From an uncultured Kangiella sp. (GTDB lineage Bacteria; Pseudomonadota; Gammaproteobacteria; Enterobacterales; Kangiellaceae): a stretch of 62,651 bases of DNA. The notes under the pieces are model-generated. The model did not search any database and had not been told where the DNA came from. It worked only from the letters and a program-made list of their open reading frames with translations. Location: the NCBI GenBank assembly GCA_950096615.1, contig CATNCP010000013.1, positions 1 to 62,651 of the forward strand. Direction: 5' to 3'. Positions 36,997-44,981 of this stretch are shown piece by piece; positions within the stretch are counted from its first letter, which is position 1, and every line of letters begins with the position of its first letter. A program made the position numbers and the translations under genes.

Positions 36997-38214
36997 CTAA
37001 ATGTCTCCGCCTTTTTCTAAAACACTCATCACATGACTCAAGTCTTTATCCCCTCGTCCCGATAAATTAACCAACAACACCGTCGGTTGCTTAACGCCTT
37101 GACTCACTTTCTTTGCATAAGCAAGTGCGTGCGACGACTCCAAAGCAGGGATGATTCCTTCTGCGTGTGATAGCTCCTGAAAAGCCTCTAATGCCTCTTC
37201 ATCAGTAATTCCCACATATTCCGCTCGCCCACTGGTCATGAGGTGTACATGCTCAGGCCCCACGGCAGGATAGTCTAAACCAGCTGAAATTGAGTGCGAC
37301 TCTATGATTTGCCCCTCATCGGTTTGTAACGTGTGTGTCCTTGCCCCATGAATGATGCCTTCAGTACCTTTTAGTAAGGTTGCACCATGAGCATCAGAGT
37401 CTAAGCCATGCCCAGCAGGCTCAACGCCAATAAGCTTCACTTGCTCCTCTTTAATAAAGTCAGCAAAGATTCCTATAGCATTAGAACCGCCGCCAACACA
37501 AGCAATGACCGCATCAGGAAGTTGTCCTGTTTGCTCCAACATCTGTTTTTTGGCTTCTTCTCCGATCACTTGTTGGAACCTCTTCACCATTTTCGGGAAA
37601 GGATGTGGCCCAGCAGCCGTACCCAGTAGGTAGTGCGTATCATCATAACTTGATGCCCAGTCGCGCAAAGCTTCATTGATCGCGTCTTTGAGACTTGCGC
37701 TACCATTATCAACGGGAATAACTTCAGCGCCCATTAGACGCATTCTGAAAACATTAGGGGCTTGGCGATCGCAGTCTTTCTTCCCCATATAAACGGTCAC
37801 TTTCAAACCTAGCAGAGCACACGCCAATGCCGTCGCCACTCCATGCTGACCCGCGCCAGTTTCCGCAATAATACGAGTTTTTCCCATGCGCTTAGCCAGT
37901 AAGGCCTGCGCCAGTACTTGGTTAGTCTTGTGAGCACCGCCATGGAGCAAGTCTTCGCGCTTTAAAAACACTCGACAGTTTTCAGTGCGCCCAAAAGTTT
38001 TACACTCGGTTAATGGCGTAGGTCTGCCCGCATAATTATTCAGTAGCGAATTGAGTTCGCTTAAAAACTCATCATCAGTAATAGCATTTTCGAAGGCCTC
38101 TTCTAGTTGCTCTAGTGCAGGTACTAGGATCTGAGGGACGAACTGCCCTCCGTATTGCCCAATATAAGCACCGTCGTATTCAAATTTGCTTGAACTAGTA
38201 TCATTCAATGACAT
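36997..38214 (-). CDS. trpB: Tryptophan synthase beta subunit
   Basis: PLP enzyme joining indole and serine to tryptophan. 405 aa. PLP Lys96 is in [11 protein letters not shown], with the GGGSNAIG phosphate cradle near 240, [13 protein letters not shown] near 120-132 and Glu in VGVEPAG. Two bases after trpCF and one before trpA, so tightly coupled with both. Confidence 0.97.
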
Positions 38215-38216
38215 GA

Positions 38217-39617
38217 CTAACCTCTATGATCGTTTCTAGGTGTTTGCCCTAGATGACTTCTACCAGACAATGCTCTGGCATTAGCAAATAATTGTTCAAT
38301 TCTTTCTGGAGACTTAACGCCCGGTGAAGTCTCAGTGCCACCACACACGTCAACCGCGCTGACGCCAAAAGATTTTAATTGCCTAATATTATCAGGAGTG
38401 ACACCACCTGCGACCCTAAACTTAAACTGCGGGTATTGTATCCTTAGTTCGTTAATGATCGACCAATCAAAAGGCTGACCAGTTCCTCCTTTGACGCTAC
38501 CAACCTGAGTATCCAGCAAAATCTCATCAACTGAATACTCAGGAATTACTGGTAGGCTACCCCCTTCTCGGATAGAAATAACCTTTGATATAAAGCAGGA
38601 AGCTGGAAGCGCCGCCCTCAAAGTCTCAACGTACTCAGCACTTTCATCACCATGCAACTGCACTCCAGAAAGTTGATGCTGAATAACCGAGTCTTTAATC
38701 TCTTCAATGCTATGATTCTGAAACACGCCAACAGTAGAATTTTTTGTATCGAAACCTTCCGGAACAACTCTGCGAGGCGAAGCGTCTACAAAAATCATGC
38801 CAACGGATGATGCAGGAGATTCAACCAATAGGTCAGCTGAAGGCTGATCTTTCACGCCACAAACTTTTATATCACCGTAGACTAACTGCTTCGCCGCCAA
38901 TGCTAAATCTTTCTGGCTCATTAAACTGCTTCCGACCAAACAGGCATCTGCCAATGGTGATAGCGTTAACACATCGTCGTGGGTAGAAATTCCCGACTCT
39001 GTAACCACCACCGTATCACTCGGAATTGCAGCTACTAGTCGCTCTGTGTGAGTAAGGTCAATACTCAAGTCTTTTAGATTACGATTGTTGATGCCAATAA
39101 TCTTAGCGTTTAGATTCAAAGCTCTCTCAAGTTCTTCCTCATTATGAACTTCTGTCAAAATATCCAAGTCATACTTTTCAGCTTCTGTCTGGCACGCTTT
39201 GTACTCTTGGTCATTCAACACCGATAGCATTAATAAAATAGCATCAGCACCATAAAAGCGAGCCTGACGAACTTGCTTGGGCTCCAGAATAAAGTCTTTG
39301 CACAAAACTGGTTTGTCAGTATTCTCGCTCACATACTTTAAATTAGCGAAGCTGCCACGGAAGAAACGGTCTTCGGTGAGTACCGAAATTGCATCCGCGT
39401 ATTGGTTATAGATCGGCACTATTTCTTCTAAATTAAAATCTTCGCGGATTAACCCCTTTGATGGCGATGCCATTTTACATTCCATGATAAAGCCGAAATG
39501 AGTTTTCTTTAATGCCTCAAAAAAACTTTTTTTACTGGCAACTAGGCCTGTGACGTCTGGGCTGTTAGCGAGTGTTTCCCGACGATGCTCAACAATGGCT
39601 TGTAATACATTAACCAT
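38217..39617 (-). CDS. trpC: Bifunctional indole-3-glycerol phosphate synthase / phosphoribosylanthranilate isomerase
   Basis: 466 aa TrpC-TrpF fusion. IGPS covers about 1-255 ([58 protein letters not shown]). PRAI covers about 255-450 ([56 protein letters not shown]). This fused form is the enteric arrangement; Pseudomonas has separate genes. Start overlaps trpD by 8 nt. The C-terminus carries about 15 extra basic residues. Confidence 0.95.
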
Positions 39618-40617
39618 TTGATAGCTCCTTAATCTTGTTCAAATGATTCAAACCTCGACCACTTTGAATAATATTCTTGGCAATACCATAACCTTCTTTG
39701 TAATCAGCTGCCAAACCATTAAGCACCAATAACGCAGAGCAATTAACAGCGACCATATCAACATGCGCTTCAGGCGCTTCGCCACTGAGTAATTGAAGAG
39801 CTGCTGTTTTGTTATCGACGCCATCACCAACTTGTATCGCGCTTAAGTCATGGCGTCTAGCAGAGAAGTCCTCTGGGGAAAATTCAAGTTTTTCAATAGC
39901 ACCATTATTAAGCATGACCGCTTTTGTTGGCCCGTGCACAGCGATTTCGTCTAGGCCTGCCCCATGAACAATCAAGGCTCTCTTAGTACCCAATAGCTCT
40001 AGGATTCTAGCGAAAGGTTCTAAATATTGCTCATCATACACGCCTAACAACTGAGTATCAGGCAAGGCAGGATTTGCTAAAGGGCCAATAAGATTAAAAA
40101 TCGTACGAGTTTTTAGTGAACGGCGTACAGGCATCACATGTTTTACGCCTTGATGATAATCAGGAGCATATAAAAAGCAGAAATTTGCCTGATCGAGTAA
40201 TGATTTACTCCTTGTTGCATTTAAGTCAATCGTAACCCCTAATTGCTCCATTAAGTCTGCAGAGCCACATTTAGAAGACACCGAGCGATTACCATGCTTA
40301 ACGATCTTCACGCCAGCCGCCGCCGCAACAATGGCCACTAGAGTGGAAACATTGATGGTATTTAAGCCATCGCCTCCAGTTCCACAGCAATCGCTGACAG
40401 AGTATTCGGCTGGTGGAAAATATTGCGCTTCTTGCCTTAACGCCGCTGCAGCTCCGGCAATTTCTTCAACTGTCTCGCCTTTTGTTTTAAGCGCTGCCAA
40501 CATGGCTGCCACCACAGGAAGCTCTACATCACCCTGCAACACTTGACGGAAAGAGCCACTGGCTTGTTCGAAGTTAAGGTTTTGGCCTTGGTAAACATTT
40601 TCAAGCAAATTCAGCAT
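39610..40617 (-). CDS. trpD: Anthranilate phosphoribosyltransferase
   Basis: Transfers phosphoribose from PRPP to anthranilate. 335 aa. CCGTGGDGLNTINVST near 78-93 binds pyrophosphate; KHGNRSVSSKCGSADLME and RTIFNLIGPLANPA are signatures. Stand-alone, not fused to TrpG as in E. coli. Start overlaps the end of trpG by 17 nt. Confidence 0.96.
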   Translation of the reverse strand: MLNLLENVYQGQNLNFEQASGSFRQVLQGDVELPVVAAMLAALKTKGETVEEIAGAAAALRQEAQYFPPAEYSVSDCCGTGGDGLNTINVSTLVAIVAAAAGVKIVKHGNRSVSSKCGSADLMEQLGVTIDLNATRSKSLLDQANFCFLYAPDYHQGVKHVMPVRRSLKTRTIFNLIGPLANPALPDTQLLGVYDEQYLEPFARILELLGTKRALIVHGAGLDEIAVHGPTKAVMLNNGAIEKLEFSPEDFSARRHDLSAIQVGDGVDNKTAALQLLSGEAPEAHVDMVAVNCSALLVLNGLAADYKEGYGIAKNIIQSGRGLNHLNKIKELSNG

Positions 40618-41215
40618 AAGACACTCCTTCTTTTTTACTCTTCTTATTCAGTGCCAATTCGATATAGTTCTTCAGTATTTTTGTACCATCACGAGTCATA
40701 ATACTTTCAGGGTGAAACTGTAAACCAAACACAGGATATTCTATGTGTGAAATTGCCATAACCTCATCATCTTCAGTCACCGCATCCACGCGTAAGTCTT
40801 TAGTTAGATGCGTCGCTGCTAAAGAGTGGTATCGTGCAACCGTGATTTTTGAGCTTAAAACATCCAATAACCCTGACTGGTACGAATAAACATTAGCAGC
40901 CTTTCCGTGCACAATGCTTTTTGCTGTACCAACTTTTCCACCGAATGCTTCAACAATGACCTGGTGACCTAAGCAAACGCCAAGAATAGGCTTTTCAGAA
41001 AACAGTTCTCTGACCAGCTTAATGCAGTGCCCTGCTTCTTTCGGAGCCCCTGGACCAGGAGACAGCACAATTGAATCAACTGATTTAGTCAATTTCTTTA
41101 ACTCTTCGTAAGGAACGTCATTACGACACACAGTCACTTCAACACCAGCAAGCTCTAGCTCATACTTTAAGTTGTAGATAAAGGAATCATAGTTATCAAT
41201 CAGTAACGTTTTCAT
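40601..41215 (-). CDS. trpG: Anthranilate synthase component II, glutamine amidotransferase
   Basis: Releases ammonia from glutamine for TrpE. 204 aa class I amidotransferase with the nucleophile Cys in GVCLGHQVIVEAFGG near 78-92, LSPGPGAPKEAG near 51-62 and the His/Glu pair in FGLQFHPESIMT. ATG overlaps the trpE stop by 4 nt (ATGA). PabA is closely related, but the operon settles it as TrpG. Confidence 0.95.
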   Translation of the reverse strand: MKTLLIDNYDSFIYNLKYELELAGVEVTVCRNDVPYEELKKLTKSVDSIVLSPGPGAPKEAGHCIKLVRELFSEKPILGVCLGHQVIVEAFGGKVGTAKSIVHGKAANVYSYQSGLLDVLSSKITVARYHSLAATHLTKDLRVDAVTEDDEVMAISHIEYPVFGLQFHPESIMTRDGTKILKNYIELALNKKSKKEGVSYAEFA

Positions 41216-42777
41216 GATAGTAGCTCCGAACTTGGTGGATTATTGCGACAAGCATCAATCACAGCTTTAGCCTTGTTGACCGTTTCTAATGCCTCAAGAC
41301 TGGGTTCAGAGTCATGAACAATACCTGCACCAGCAGATATTTTTGCAACGCCATCGCTCACCACAGCTGAGCGAATAATGATGGCACTATCAAATTCATC
41401 ATTGGCATTGAGCACACATACCGCGCCACCATAATAGCCTCGACCTTCAGACTCCTGCTCACGGATGATTTCCATCGCTTTAATCTTAGGTGCGCCGGTT
41501 AAGGTTCCCATATTGGCGCAGGCTCGATAGGCAACCAGTGAATCAATGTCGGTTTTTAACACACCCTTAATTTCTGACACCATATGCTGTACGTGCGAAT
41601 ACTTCACAATGCGCTTTAATTGAATAACTTCGCGGCTGCCAGGAACAACCACCTTGGCCAAATCGTTTCGAGCAAGATCTACCAACATCATATGCTCAGC
41701 TGACTCTTTTTTGTCCTCAATTAATTCGAACTCTACTCGAGAATCATGATCGTGATTAATCTCACCAGTAAGTTCATCGATTGCGCGCTTACGAGTGCCA
41801 GCAATCGGATAGAGGTAAACCTCACGTTTCTTATTGACCTTGAGTGCGCTTTCGGGGCTCGCACCAAAGAGCTCTTTATCGCCAAAGTTTAGAAAGTACA
41901 TATAAGGTGATGGATTGGTTAAACGTAACTTGCCATAAGCTTTGTACGCATTTGAGCAAGATACATTAAAGGTTCGAGCTAACACCACCTGAAAAATGTC
42001 GCCTTTAACAATACGTTCCTTGGCTCGATCCACAAACTGATAGTACTCATTATCAGAAATATTTAAGGCTATCGAAGAATTCTCGTTCTGCTCATCAAAG
42101 CTCAACAATTCATTCGATTGCTGACTCACAAGAATGTCATAAATGTTTTCTAACTCAACTCCTAGCCTGACAGTATTCTCAGCATTATTACCAAAACCTT
42201 TCACCACCACTTTAGCTGACTGACTTTCGCGATGTTGTATCACTAGTTGGTCTGCTACATAGAAGCAATAATCTTCCTGAGATTTGCTAATACTCGGTAA
42301 CTGTTCATATTGCTCAACAACTTCGTAACTGAAAGCACCTATAAGCATTGATGTTTCGTTATCAGCGGTATTATCTTTTAGTAAGTCTCTAAGGTATTGC
42401 AACACTGTCACTGTCGTGGTTTCGGACAAACGTTCCGCTTCATTGCTGACTGACGGGCTTTTCTCTAACACCAAATCTAGCTCTTGCCCCTTATCATTCA
42501 CGACAAAGCTTTGCTCTAAGAACTCTAATGATTTAATGGATTTTAGCAGTTCTTGGCCATTTGGATTTAAAGCTGTCAACGTTACAACGTGATCCAACGC
42601 TTTAATCTGAAGCGCTGCCGATACCATCACAACGCTACGTTGGTGCTCGTGAGTCCCTGCCTCTGCAGTCTCTAACAGTGCAGTATGCTTAACCTGCCCC
42701 TTATCGGCTAAAACACCATAGACCTGAAACGGGTTTAGACTCAAAGGCAGTTTACGGGTTAACGTTTTAACTCGCAT
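41212..42777 (-). CDS. trpE: Anthranilate synthase component I
   Basis: Converts chorismate and ammonia to anthranilate. 521 aa with the chorismate-binding core: FQVVLARTFNV, PSPYMYFLNFG, SPESALKV, PIAGTRKR, VDLARNDLAKV, GTLTGAPKIKAMEII and GAGIVHDSEP. The Trp feedback site motif LLES of enteric TrpE reads LLET at 34-37, a conservative change, so feedback inhibition is likely retained. Overlaps the end of the DAHP synthase gene by 11 nt. Confidence 0.95.
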   Translation of the reverse strand: MRVKTLTRKLPLSLNPFQVYGVLADKGQVKHTALLETAEAGTHEHQRSVVMVSAALQIKALDHVVTLTALNPNGQELLKSIKSLEFLEQSFVVNDKGQELDLVLEKSPSVSNEAERLSETTTVTVLQYLRDLLKDNTADNETSMLIGAFSYEVVEQYEQLPSISKSQEDYCFYVADQLVIQHRESQSAKVVVKGFGNNAENTVRLGVELENIYDILVSQQSNELLSFDEQNENSSIALNISDNEYYQFVDRAKERIVKGDIFQVVLARTFNVSCSNAYKAYGKLRLTNPSPYMYFLNFGDKELFGASPESALKVNKKREVYLYPIAGTRKRAIDELTGEINHDHDSRVEFELIEDKKESAEHMMLVDLARNDLAKVVVPGSREVIQLKRIVKYSHVQHMVSEIKGVLKTDIDSLVAYRACANMGTLTGAPKIKAMEIIREQESEGRGYYGGAVCVLNANDEFDSAIIIRSAVVSDGVAKISAGAGIVHDSEPSLEALETVNKAKAVIDACRNNPPSSELLS

Positions 42778-43801
42778 TGAGCGCCTCCTGATAAGTTCGG
42801 CCGCTAGCTTTAATAAACGGAACCAGCTGTTGCATCAATTGCGAAAAATCGTCCGCTGACAGCGCTTGCGCTGCATCAGACACAGATTCGCGGGGATTAC
42901 GGTGTGACTCAATGATCAAACCATCAGCGCCGCATGCGACCCCTGCCTTTGCCATAGGTCCGACTAATGTTCGTACTCCAGTGCCGTGTGAAGGGTCAAC
43001 GATAACAGGCAAGTGACTTTTCTCTTTAATAAACGCTACCGCATTTAAGTCCAAGGTATTTCGTGTAGCTGTCTCAAATGTACGAATACCTCGCTCGCAG
43101 ATCATAACGTTAGGGTTGCCGGTCGCTACAATATACTCAGCTGCCAACAGTAACTCTTCGATAGTTGCTGATAAGCCACGCTTCAGAAGCACTGGGTGCT
43201 TTGTTTCACCAACTGCTTTTAAAAGCGTATAATTCTGCATGTTACGTGCACCGATTTGGAAAGCAGACGTATAACGAGCAACATCATCAAGATCATTAAC
43301 ATCCATAATCTCAGTTATCGTATCCATTCCAACTTCTTTGCCCACCTGCTCCATAATTTTTAAACCTTCGACCCCTAACCCTTGAAATGAATACGGGCTA
43401 GTTCTAGGTTTGAAAGCACCGCCTCGTAGCACTGTTGCGCCTGAAGACTTAACCTGCTGAGCAGTTTCAAGTAACTGCTCATAACTCTCGATAGCACATG
43501 GTCCCGCCATAATGGTGAACTGATCACCACCGACAGGGGTGTTACCTACATCTATAACCGTATCGTGTGGGTAAATTTCACGACTAACCAACTTATACTT
43601 GCTCAACACAGGCTTTAAGTGCTCGACTTGTGGATGATTATCAAAGTGTAGAGACTGCAAAATACGTTCATCGCCTAACGCGCCAATAACAGTCCGCTCG
43701 ACACCAGGCATATGTAATGGCTTTAATCCAGCCTCTTCAATCTGCGTTAAAATTTCCTGTGCATCTGCTTCGGTCGCTGTAGGCTTTAAAATAATAATCA
43801 T
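42767..43801 (-). CDS. DAHP synthase, type I-beta with N-terminal ferredoxin-like domain
   Basis: First shikimate step: PEP plus erythrose 4-phosphate to DAHP. From the ATG at 43801 (AAGGAAA, 6 nt spacing) the protein is 344 aa; the longer frame to 43849 runs toward the attenuator and is not credible. Residues 1-70 are the ferredoxin-like regulatory domain (IIILKPTATEADAQEI; GALGDE). The barrel has MAGPCAIES, LRGGAFKPRTSPYSFQGLG, QIGARNMQNY, LLKRGLSAT, ICERGIRTFE and IVDPSHGTG with the metal-binding Cys and His. First gene of the trp operon, thus under Trp attenuation. Which amino acid inhibits it cannot be read from sequence. Confidence 0.93.
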   Translation of the reverse strand: MIIILKPTATEADAQEILTQIEEAGLKPLHMPGVERTVIGALGDERILQSLHFDNHPQVEHLKPVLSKYKLVSREIYPHDTVIDVGNTPVGGDQFTIMAGPCAIESYEQLLETAQQVKSSGATVLRGGAFKPRTSPYSFQGLGVEGLKIMEQVGKEVGMDTITEIMDVNDLDDVARYTSAFQIGARNMQNYTLLKAVGETKHPVLLKRGLSATIEELLLAAEYIVATGNPNVMICERGIRTFETATRNTLDLNAVAFIKEKSHLPVIVDPSHGTGVRTLVGPMAKAGVACGADGLIIESHRNPRESVSDAAQALSADDFSQLMQQLVPFIKASGRTYQEALNAS

Positions 43802-43852
43802 GGTTGTTTCCTTAAGTTTAAAATCGTTAAATTCAAATTCTGTAGACACAAA

Positions 43853-43876
43853 AAAACCCGCTCAATGGCGGGTTTT
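43853..43876 (-). terminator. Attenuator 2 terminator (3:4 hairpin), promoter-distal
   Basis: AAAACCCGC (43853-43861), loop tcaatg, GCGGGTTTT (43868-43876). On the minus strand it is followed by a T-run and lies about 50 bp before the DAHP synthase ATG. The segment 43867-43880 can instead pair with 43890-43903 right after the leader 2 stop: GGCGGG/CCCGCC plus TTGTC/GACAA, the antiterminator. Confidence 0.93.
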
Positions 43877-43903
43877 GTCATTTCACATAGACAATAGCCC
43901 GCC

Positions 43904-43963
43904 CTAGCAGCTCCACCACCATTGATGTTGAGTCATATCTGTTGCTAAGTTGATGATTGTCAT
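43904..43963 (-). CDS. Trp leader peptide 2
   Basis: 19-codon ORF reading MTIINLATDMTQHQWWWSC, with three consecutive TGG codons at positions 15-17 and a stop directly before the antiterminator segment. AAGGT lies 9 nt upstream of the ATG at 43963. An internal in-frame ATG at 43936 would give a 10-residue leader. CAATGG, which includes the first Trp codon, can pair with CTATTG downstream as a 1:2 hairpin. Ribosome stalling at TGG under Trp shortage would favour the antiterminator and let RNA polymerase reach the DAHP synthase gene. Confidence 0.9.
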   Translation of the reverse strand: MTIINLATDMTQHQWWWSC

Positions 43964-44005
43964 GTTGCTATTACCTTGGTTAATCAATTAATTTTATTTA
44001 CGCAT

Positions 44006-44032
44006 AAAAAAAGCCCGCACAGTGCGGGCTTT
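44006..44032 (-). terminator. Attenuator 1 terminator (3:4 hairpin), promoter-proximal
   Basis: AAGCCCGC (44011-44018), short loop and GCGGGCTT (44024-44031), extendable to 11 bp, with TTTTTTT following on the minus strand. On the RNA, segment 2 directly after leader 1 (44067-44074) is GCGGGCTT, identical to segment 4 (44011-44018), so both compete for segment 3 AAGCCCGC (44024-44031). This is the classic attenuator switch. Confidence 0.93.
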
Positions 44033-44077
44033 AAAATTCTTTTTTCGCTTTATACCAAACGTCAAGAAGCCCGCTAC

Positions 44078-44125
44078 TTAAGTAACGTGCCACCACCAGA
44101 TATTTTTTACGTATAAAGTTTTCAT
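44078..44125 (-). CDS. Trp leader peptide 1
   Basis: 15-codon ORF reading MKTLYVKNIWWWHVT, with three consecutive TGG codons at positions 10-12. The stop is four bases before the antiterminator segment GCGGGCTT. No Shine-Dalgarno sequence is visible before the ATG. A candidate promoter (-35 TTGACC, -10 TAACTT) would start transcription almost at the ATG, so the mRNA may be leaderless. Stop-proximal GTTACTTAAGTAGC is near-palindromic and may form the 1:2 structure. Confidence 0.9.
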   Translation of the reverse strand: MKTLYVKNIWWWHVT

Positions 44126-44132
44126 GTGAGCT

Positions 44133-44161
44133 AAGTTAATTCAATTCTAAATCTAGGTCAA
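44133..44161 (-). promoter_or_regulatory. Candidate trp operon promoter
   Basis: On the minus strand -35 TTGACC (44156-44161), 17-bp spacer, -10 TAACTT (44133-44138; 3 of 6 matches). It is just downstream of the ParA gene stop. Its start point would be within a few bases of the leader 1 ATG at 44125. Confidence 0.45.
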
Positions 44162-44175
44162 GTGTTTATTCGAAC

Positions 44176-44886
44176 TTATTTTTCTCTTACGAATTTCTCA
44201 ACTTGAGCCTCGGTCTTCAACCGAGAGCCGGCTTGTGATGACAGCAAACGTTCGATGCTAGACGTTAAAGCCCAAATTTCAAGTTTAGCTGCTGGATCAT
44301 GCCACTCAGCAACAGTTAACCCATCCGCAAAAGAGTCTAAATATGCCACTCGGTTACCTAGCTTTGTTGGGAAATCTTCTAAATTTAGCTCTTTTTTCGC
44401 CTTAGAAACCACATCTTCAGCCGAGTTGGTTCTTACGCGGTATCGATTCCAACAAATTCTAGCCTCTAGGCTTTTGTTAACCTGCTTGGCCTCTCCGACG
44501 ATCTCAGCCAAATGCTTAGTAGACCAGACCTCAACTTGAGACGGCGCCATAGGAATTAAAACCAAATCGGAAAGTAGAATAACTGCGCGGGTTAAGTTCG
44601 TGATTCGGGGGTGACCATCGATTAGTATGTAATCATAATCTTTAACGTTATCGCGCACCAGTTTTTGTAAGTGTGCAACGTTTTTGGCGACTAAAACATC
44701 TAGGTTTTCAATAACATAGTTCTCGCTTCGAATCTCAAACCATGTTTTAAGGGAGCACTGAGGAACATCCGTATCAATAATGAGAACTTTACCTGAATCG
44801 GACAAGGTAGAAGCAATGTTAGAGCATAGAGTCGTCTTACCGGCACCACCCTTCATCTGAACAAAACTTAATACTTTTGCGCGCAT
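44176..44886 (-). CDS. Orphan ParA/MinD-family ATPase
   Basis: 236 aa from the ATG at 44886 (a TTG at 44901 adds five residues). Deviant Walker A KGGAGKTT near 12-19, Walker A' IIDTDVPQCSLKTW near 40-53 and Walker B DYDYILIDGHPR near 87-98. This is the short ParA type without an N-terminal DNA-binding domain. No parB, plasmid or chemotaxis gene is adjacent; it sits between the trp leader and the pilin operon. Relatives position plasmids, chromosomes or protein complexes, including polar pili and chemoreceptors. Its cargo is unknown. No terminator is visible between it and the trp promoter, so some readthrough into the trp leader is possible. Confidence 0.85.
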   Translation of the reverse strand: MRAKVLSFVQMKGGAGKTTLCSNIASTLSDSGKVLIIDTDVPQCSLKTWFEIRSENYVIENLDVLVAKNVAHLQKLVRDNVKDYDYILIDGHPRITNLTRAVILLSDLVLIPMAPSQVEVWSTKHLAEIVGEAKQVNKSLEARICWNRYRVRTNSAEDVVSKAKKELNLEDFPTKLGNRVAYLDSFADGLTVAEWHDPAAKLEIWALTSSIERLLSSQAGSRLKTEAQVEKFVREK

Positions 44887-44981
44887 AACAAACAGCCCCA
44901 AATTCCGTTATTTTGATTTAAGCATTCTACATGAGGTAGGTTATTGATTCTAGTTACTTTATCTGCAAAGGCCACATGCAT

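Follow-up and report, generated by a model that had tools for sequence, protein, structure and literature searches.

The best-known case of ribosome-mediated trp attenuation is trpL of Escherichia coli, in which a leader open reading frame (ORF) with adjacent Trp codons is followed by mutually exclusive 2:3 and 3:4 pairings and by a terminator with a T-run. This textbook attenuator is a single gate, paired with TrpR. Two RNA gates can act serially on one operon in the form of tandem T-boxes, and proteobacterial amino-acid attenuators were surveyed comparatively in 2004, in work that may mention tandem units.

Excerpts of work on the Salmonella mgtCBR leader mRNA describe two short ORFs, each governing transcription of the same operon. 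One ORF senses ATP and the other proline, an arrangement that the authors distinguish from a leader of two intrinsic terminators (PMC3641672); tandem riboswitches, with metE as the case named, appear in the same excerpts. For Sinorhizobium meliloti trpLE(G), the portions of PMC7298713 consulted describe a single trp attenuator in an operon without transcriptional repression; its RNA has the leader ATG as its 5' end, and both RNA and peptide also work in trans. A Shewanella survey lists a Trp_leader at trpE, and tandem units go unmentioned in the passages drawn from it (PMC2659441). A 2026 study, likewise consulted in excerpt, sets initiation-plus-attenuation against attenuation-only trp control (PMC13178558). 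Within the open-licence PMC literature, subscription journals being mostly outside its scope, we found no description of ribosome-mediated attenuators for the same amino acid in series. An earlier note on the DNA described below, made from its sequence, had likewise known of no such tandem form, in agreement with the open-licence PMC papers searched.

Two predicted Trp attenuators ahead of a tryptophan operon

The window, the whole 62,651-nucleotide stretch of DNA analyzed here, appears to carry two full ribosome-mediated Trp attenuators on its minus strand (44125-43853) ahead of a DAHP synthase-trpE-G-D-CF-B operon. From 5' to 3', the leader comprises a TTGACC-N17-TAACTT site, a 15-codon ORF, a terminator, a 19-codon ORF, and a second terminator. 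All elements that the earlier note had assigned to this tandem are present, and they were located by the terminator scan, a unit detector, and direct reading of the sequence. Leader ORF 1 (MKTLYVKNIWWWHVT; 44125-44078) begins with the ATG at 44125, contains three consecutive TGG codons (44098-44090), and ends at the stop codon 44080-44078. It is followed by segment 2, the antiterminator strand (GCGGGCTT; 44074-44067), and by segment 3 (AAGCCCGC; 44031-44024). Segment 4 (44018-44011) is the same 8-mer as segment 2, as the earlier note had pointed out; it forms the intrinsic terminator together with segment 3, and a T-run follows (44032-44010).

Unit 2 has the same parts in a different sequence. 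Leader ORF 2 (MTIINLATDMTQHQWWWSC; 43963-43904) runs from the ATG at 43963 through three consecutive TGG codons (43921-43913) to the stop codon 43906-43904. Its segment 2 (43903-43890) consists of GGCGGG (43903-43898) and TTGTC (43894-43890), which lie opposite CCCGCC (43872-43867) and GACAA (43879-43875), the antiterminator originally proposed. The intrinsic terminator, followed by a T-run, spans 43876-43853, and the GACAA motif extends its segment 3. In both units, bases at or just past the leader stop are similar in sequence to the terminator's 3' arm and able to pair with its 5' arm, and the resulting choice is the 2:3 versus 3:4 pairing of classical attenuation.

The first gene of the operon encodes a DAHP synthase (42767-43801, minus strand; PF00793 plus a ferredoxin-like domain, PF18152). 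It is followed on the same strand by trpE, for anthranilate synthase component I by its Pfam domains (41212-42777), and by trpG, trpD, trpCF, and trpB (36997-41215), named from Pfam domains and gene order. With TrpE, G, D, CF, and B domains in the operon, its product by Pfam assignment is Trp, the same amino acid that the leaders read. Two further PF00793 genes (343 aa and 291 aa, the latter presumably KdsA) and one class II gene are other DAHP synthase candidates in the genome of the window, and the operon's enzyme is probably not the only one in the cell. Tight Trp control of this copy would therefore be tolerable, as the Phe and Tyr branches need not starve. Upstream, a ParA-like ATPase gene (44176-44901, minus strand) ends 14 nt before the promoter-like site. 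A scan of 43700-44300 listed no terminator between the two, so other transcripts may enter the leader by read-through.

The unit detector, which combines a Trp-cluster ORF, a terminator, and a complementary segment, returned both units and two weaker matches from the two strands of the window, the latter inside long coding frames. When the 379-nt leader region was dinucleotide-shuffled 1500 times, a Trp-cluster ORF appeared in 95 of the shuffles, two terminators in none, and a complete unit in none; with 0/1500 shuffles yielding even one complete unit, a chance origin was rejected. The terminator scan of 43700-44300 gave three sites over two strands, both unit terminators included, against a shuffle mean of 0.4. 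Rfam at gathering scores produced zero matches in the window; below them, Trp_leader (RF00513) matches the units separately with 27.7 and 27.5 bits (E 0.001; gathering score 41). Each whole unit also has a better fold than the majority of its shuffled versions (z -2.1 and -2.4).

Conservation, competing pairings, and promoter layout

Every one of the 20 genus genomes searched (the window's own counted) has both complete units, and the DAHP synthases of these genomes show identities to that of the window as low as 81%. Neither unit has been lost across these close relatives, and the different leaders and spacings are kept throughout the genus, which fits the original view that the tandem is not a recent duplication. 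Leader 1 has three adjacent Trp codons in 15 genomes and two in 5, and its C-terminus reads WWHVT in 16 and WWHVA in 2, with other endings in L018 and L022. Its last Trp codon and segment 2 are 14-15 nt apart in 20/20 genomes, and its stop lies 2-3 nt ahead of segment 2 in 19/20. Leader 2 is more variable. Its stop is at most 1 nt from segment 2 in 13/20 genomes; in 7/20 the ORF runs on through segment 2, which is then located 19-36 nt before the ORF end and may stay uncovered when a ribosome reaches the stop.

The family search added 20 genomes, of which 18 were readable, L042 and L043 being left out for too little upstream sequence. Two complete units were present in 11 of the 18. L023 and L040 have two terminators and a second leader with one Trp codon, and a single unit was found in five genomes (L033, L035, L037, L039, and L041). 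Loss of a unit is therefore possible, which speaks for a reading in which one unit alone regulates the operon and its partner is a remnant that persists by chance or serves simply as a terminator. We nevertheless consider this unlikely for the locus at hand, because Trp codons, terminator, and a matching segment 2 are kept in each unit in all 20 genus genomes, and because segments pair with their own terminator arms above the permuted level (see below). As separate observations, L033, L035, and L039 carry, at the expected position of unit 2, copies of a repeat whose core resembles TGTCCAGGGATGGACTGTATG, upstream of the DAHP synthase gene, and this repeat may have displaced the unit there. The only leader of L041 (genome G031) has an in-frame TGA ahead of its Trp codons.

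Pairing between each segment 2 and its own terminator arm averaged 18.5, versus 16.6 with randomly dealt arms. In each of 20 draws, none of 200 permutations reached the observed value, a count that is not a probability, as the draws (29 units, one per genus and position) overlap and the genera are related. Of all 100 units, 82 scored higher in own pairing than in mean pairing with the arms of other genera, and 18 scored lower. Compensations are visible as AGGTGGGTT with AGCCCACTT in L046 and as ACGGGTTT with AAACCCGT in L038.

Folding was modeled for several ribosome positions. When the ribosome occupied the second Trp codon and the RNA extended up to segment 3, the antiterminator reached a median pair probability across the genus of 0.985 in unit 1 and 0.995 in unit 2. 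With the ribosome at the stop, the terminator was favored in 20/20 genus genomes for either unit, in a model that hides all RNA behind the ribosome and is too favorable for the seven genomes with segment 2 inside leader 2. Full-unit equilibrium with the ribosome at the second Trp codon favored the terminator in 16/20 genomes for unit 1 and 8/20 for unit 2, the window itself giving 0.50 and 0.32. Since the terminator is often favored at equilibrium despite a stalled ribosome, antitermination would have to be kinetic, depending on the order of synthesis. For RNA begun at the Trp codons with no ribosome, the median terminator probability was 1.0 in unit 1 and 0.045 in unit 2. We did not adopt a reading in which absence of a ribosome would turn unit 1 off and unit 2 on, as the fold from the start codon favors the terminator in 20/20 genomes for unit 1 and 12/20 for unit 2.

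The predicted promoter (TTGACC, 17-nt spacer, TAACTT; 44161-44133, minus strand) has 8 of 12 consensus bases, and its -10 element ends 7 nt before the leader 1 ATG. This score explains its absence from our scan list, for which the rule is 9/12. The pattern TTGAC(C/G)-N17-TANNNT precedes leader 1 in 20/20 genus genomes, 6-7 nt from the ATG and with 8 or 9 of 12 consensus bases. At the 9/12 rule, the window holds two sites (1.3 expected). The first lies within the gene upstream; the second, at 44065-44036, falls between leader 1 and terminator 1. Were each attenuator to have its own promoter, the two would act in parallel rather than in series. Off-consensus promoters do escape a simple scan, and the 44065-44036 site does lie within unit 1 of the window, though upstream of terminator 1. 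Against two promoters, that site was not seen in the other 19 genus genomes, the site before leader 1 is common to all 20, and after terminator 1, from which the leader 2 Trp codons are 59-116 nt away in the genus, no site of at least 9/12 was found in 19/20, the single one (L012) being inside leader 2. Parallel promoters were rejected on this comparison, and we rate them the least probable of the arrangements considered; the serial layout assumed in the earlier note, with no promoter between the units, holds at the 9/12 level across the genus.

A promoter-like site conserved at 6-7 nt from the ATG implies that the RNA would start at or beside the first codon of leader 1, which is probably leaderless, judging from the sequence. 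An SD-like sequence precedes leader 1 in 0/20 genus genomes and leader 2 in 14/20. The predicted 5' end recalls that of rnTrpL, given as the trpL ATG in the excerpts of PMC7298713, and within the genus leader 1 is more strongly conserved at its end (WWHVT in most) than leader 2 is. Both features would suit a unit 1 that mainly yields a short trans-acting RNA or peptide, as the S. meliloti trp attenuator does, leaving unit 2 alone to gate the operon. This division of labor seems to us very unlikely: the conserved pairing between segment 2 and the terminator is a requirement of cis attenuation, and a role of unit 1 in trans would be compatible with one in cis.

Taken together, the anatomy and chance test, the 20/20 conservation, the own-arm pairing, the positions of the segments, the folding before segment 4, the promoter layout, the Trp-making operon, and the correlation with TrpR described below are best explained by serial attenuation. 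We consider it very likely that the two ribosome-mediated Trp attenuators are transcribed serially from a single promoter, an arrangement that would multiply repression. The leaders, terminators, competing segments, single conserved candidate promoter, and their conservation are read directly from the genomes; from them we infer that the leaders are translated, that ribosomes stall, and that transcription terminates in the cell. With charged tRNA-Trp scarce, a ribosome would be held at the Trp codons, leaving segment 2 free to pair with segment 3, and no terminator would form. A ribosome reaching the leader stop would cover segment 2 and let the terminator form. RNA polymerase would have to pass both gates, with read-through as the product of two Trp-dependent probabilities, and serial gates could thus raise the repression ratio without a repressor protein. 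By simple arithmetic, a factor r per gate would become r squared for two, at the cost of a lower maximum.

Distribution across the order and relation to TrpR

The order sample comprised 394 genomes, of which 56 encode this DAHP synthase at E 1e-100; upstream sequence was read for all 22 outside the family. Two complete units were found in 5/5 genomes of f15, in 3/3 of f14, and in the one readable genome of f13 (L058), whose second ORF continues through its terminator; the other f13 locus (L206) offers 92 nt upstream only and is unreadable. The single f4 genome (1/1, L205) has two leaders with terminators, and no antiterminator was found for the first leader. All genomes of f7 (5/5) and f25 (2/2) have a complete first unit and then a Trp leader without a terminator, and one unit only was found in the three f6 genomes, as well as in Ferrimonas (L060) and Enterovibrio (L059) from the contig scan described below. 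On a tree of 60 DAHP synthases, the label "two" needs at least 6 changes, 4 of them forced by well-supported branches, whereas shuffled labels average 16.4. The tandem has therefore undergone repeated gains or losses, and the tree is silent on which.

Several variants deserve mention in their own right. The second Trp leader of f7 encodes a conserved peptide, KSWF(I/M)WWL(Q/L)P(I/L)YAG, without a terminator; it was read before the DAHP synthase gene in L045, L046, L052, L140, and L204 and before trpE in L151 and L154. In the loci read, it ends about 30-40 nt from the first gene, and it might work at the level of translation or have a function as a peptide. Behind a complete first attenuator, f11, f12, and f25 have a short second leader with TGGCGATGG (Trp-Arg-Trp), for which no terminator was seen in L170, L172, L174, L190, L198, L054, and L202. 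In f23 (L057), a leader rich in Phe and Tyr codons, MNLSHQYFYFFGWFCSHSGREGMVCG, stands before a terminator about 150 nt ahead of the DAHP synthase gene; perhaps the sensed amino acid has changed there. The Enterovibrio locus has ACTAGTTAACTAGTAC, which resembles the TrpR operator, in its promoter region ahead of the single attenuator. A scan of genome contigs kept 80 loci, mostly from distant organisms, and among the eight inspected upstream a Trp leader was seen only in Enterovibrio and Ferrimonas, with none in L062, L063, L066, L067, L076, and L078. Among 370 genomes, the class-wide search matched that of the window and a second one (L139), which shows no Trp leader.

At the curated cut-off, TrpR (PF01371) was found in none of the 40 family genomes searched, some of which are incomplete; in G000, a 25.1-bit match below the 27-bit cut-off falls in a 324-aa frame. 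Of 15 other genomes that encode this DAHP synthase, 14 likewise lack TrpR, and the exception (G067, f6) has one attenuator. A trpE hit was present in 129 genomes; for trpE-first loci, upstream sequence was read in 60 of them, chosen mostly one to four per genus, and TrpR was called on the same 148-genome sample as the trpE search. Leaders at these 60 loci were counted with an earlier version of the detector, to which unit 2 of the window and a number of terminators were invisible, and by hand curation, in which ORFs in L152, L153, L156, L162, L164, L167, L168, L175, L183, and L197 were removed as neighboring coding sequence or chance. Two leaders here means that each has two Trp codons close together, and only genomes with at least one Trp leader entered the count. 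On these hand-made lists, two leaders occur in 0 of 16 TrpR-positive and 57 of 83 TrpR-negative genomes, the latter including G031, whose Trp codons come after a stop. The 57 consist of 40 genomes with two complete units (20 in this genus), plus 4 genomes of the DAHP synthase set with a second leader that has no terminator, and 13 genomes of the trpE-first set. Left out were 11 TrpR-positive and 3 TrpR-negative genomes (G061, G077, and G078) for having no Trp leader, G024 and G026 for unreadable upstream sequence, and G588, G589, G615, G619, G695, G742, and G757, DAHP synthase genomes without a TrpR call.

Because the genomes are related, a family-level count is fairer. Two leaders were present in 0 of 6 TrpR-positive and 8 of 12 TrpR-negative families (Fisher p 0.013), with f1, f7, and f25 scored as two despite one-leader members and f11, which has both TrpR states, scored as TrpR-negative with two. 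Within f11, the second leader is down to one Trp codon in the TrpR-positive genome G071 (L171). TrpR is missing from families f3, f9, f16, and f20 as well, and the members read there carry one leader; lack of TrpR is therefore not enough. The link between two leaders and the absence of TrpR is a correlation, and perhaps two Trp gates in series stand in for TrpR. A tentative account, possible rather than probable in our estimate, is that a second Trp leader, downstream of an ancestral one, arose or was kept in TrpR-less lineages, with stacked attenuation replacing repression plus attenuation. Some families have a terminator behind the second leader; where there is none, this leader would need another mode of action. 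The first leader would be read from a leaderless RNA.

Comparison with known systems

Beside initiation-plus-attenuation and attenuation-only control, the two layouts set out in the excerpts of PMC13178558, serial attenuation would be a third layout for trp genes. Two gates for the same amino acid, kept in a genus and several families, would show RNA replacing a repressor, and the natural tandem design allows a test of whether serial attenuators multiply, sharpen, or alter the noise of a response.

The locus resembles E. coli trpL in its adjacent Trp codons, exclusive pairings, T-run terminator, and downstream trp genes; it differs in having two serial units, with no TrpR found, DAHP synthase as the first gene, and both units below the RF00513 gathering score. 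Tandem riboswitches and T-boxes also place two RNA gates in series, but these respond to ligand or tRNA binding rather than to ribosome stalling at codons. As far as the excerpts of PMC3641672 describe it, the Salmonella mgtCBR leader likewise has two short ORFs ahead of one operon, whereas here each ORF has, by its sequence, three adjacent Trp codons and its own terminator. With S. meliloti trpLE(G), as portrayed in the portions of PMC7298713 consulted, the locus shares a Trp attenuator and an RNA start, predicted here, at the leader ATG; there, one attenuator precedes the genes, and here there are two.
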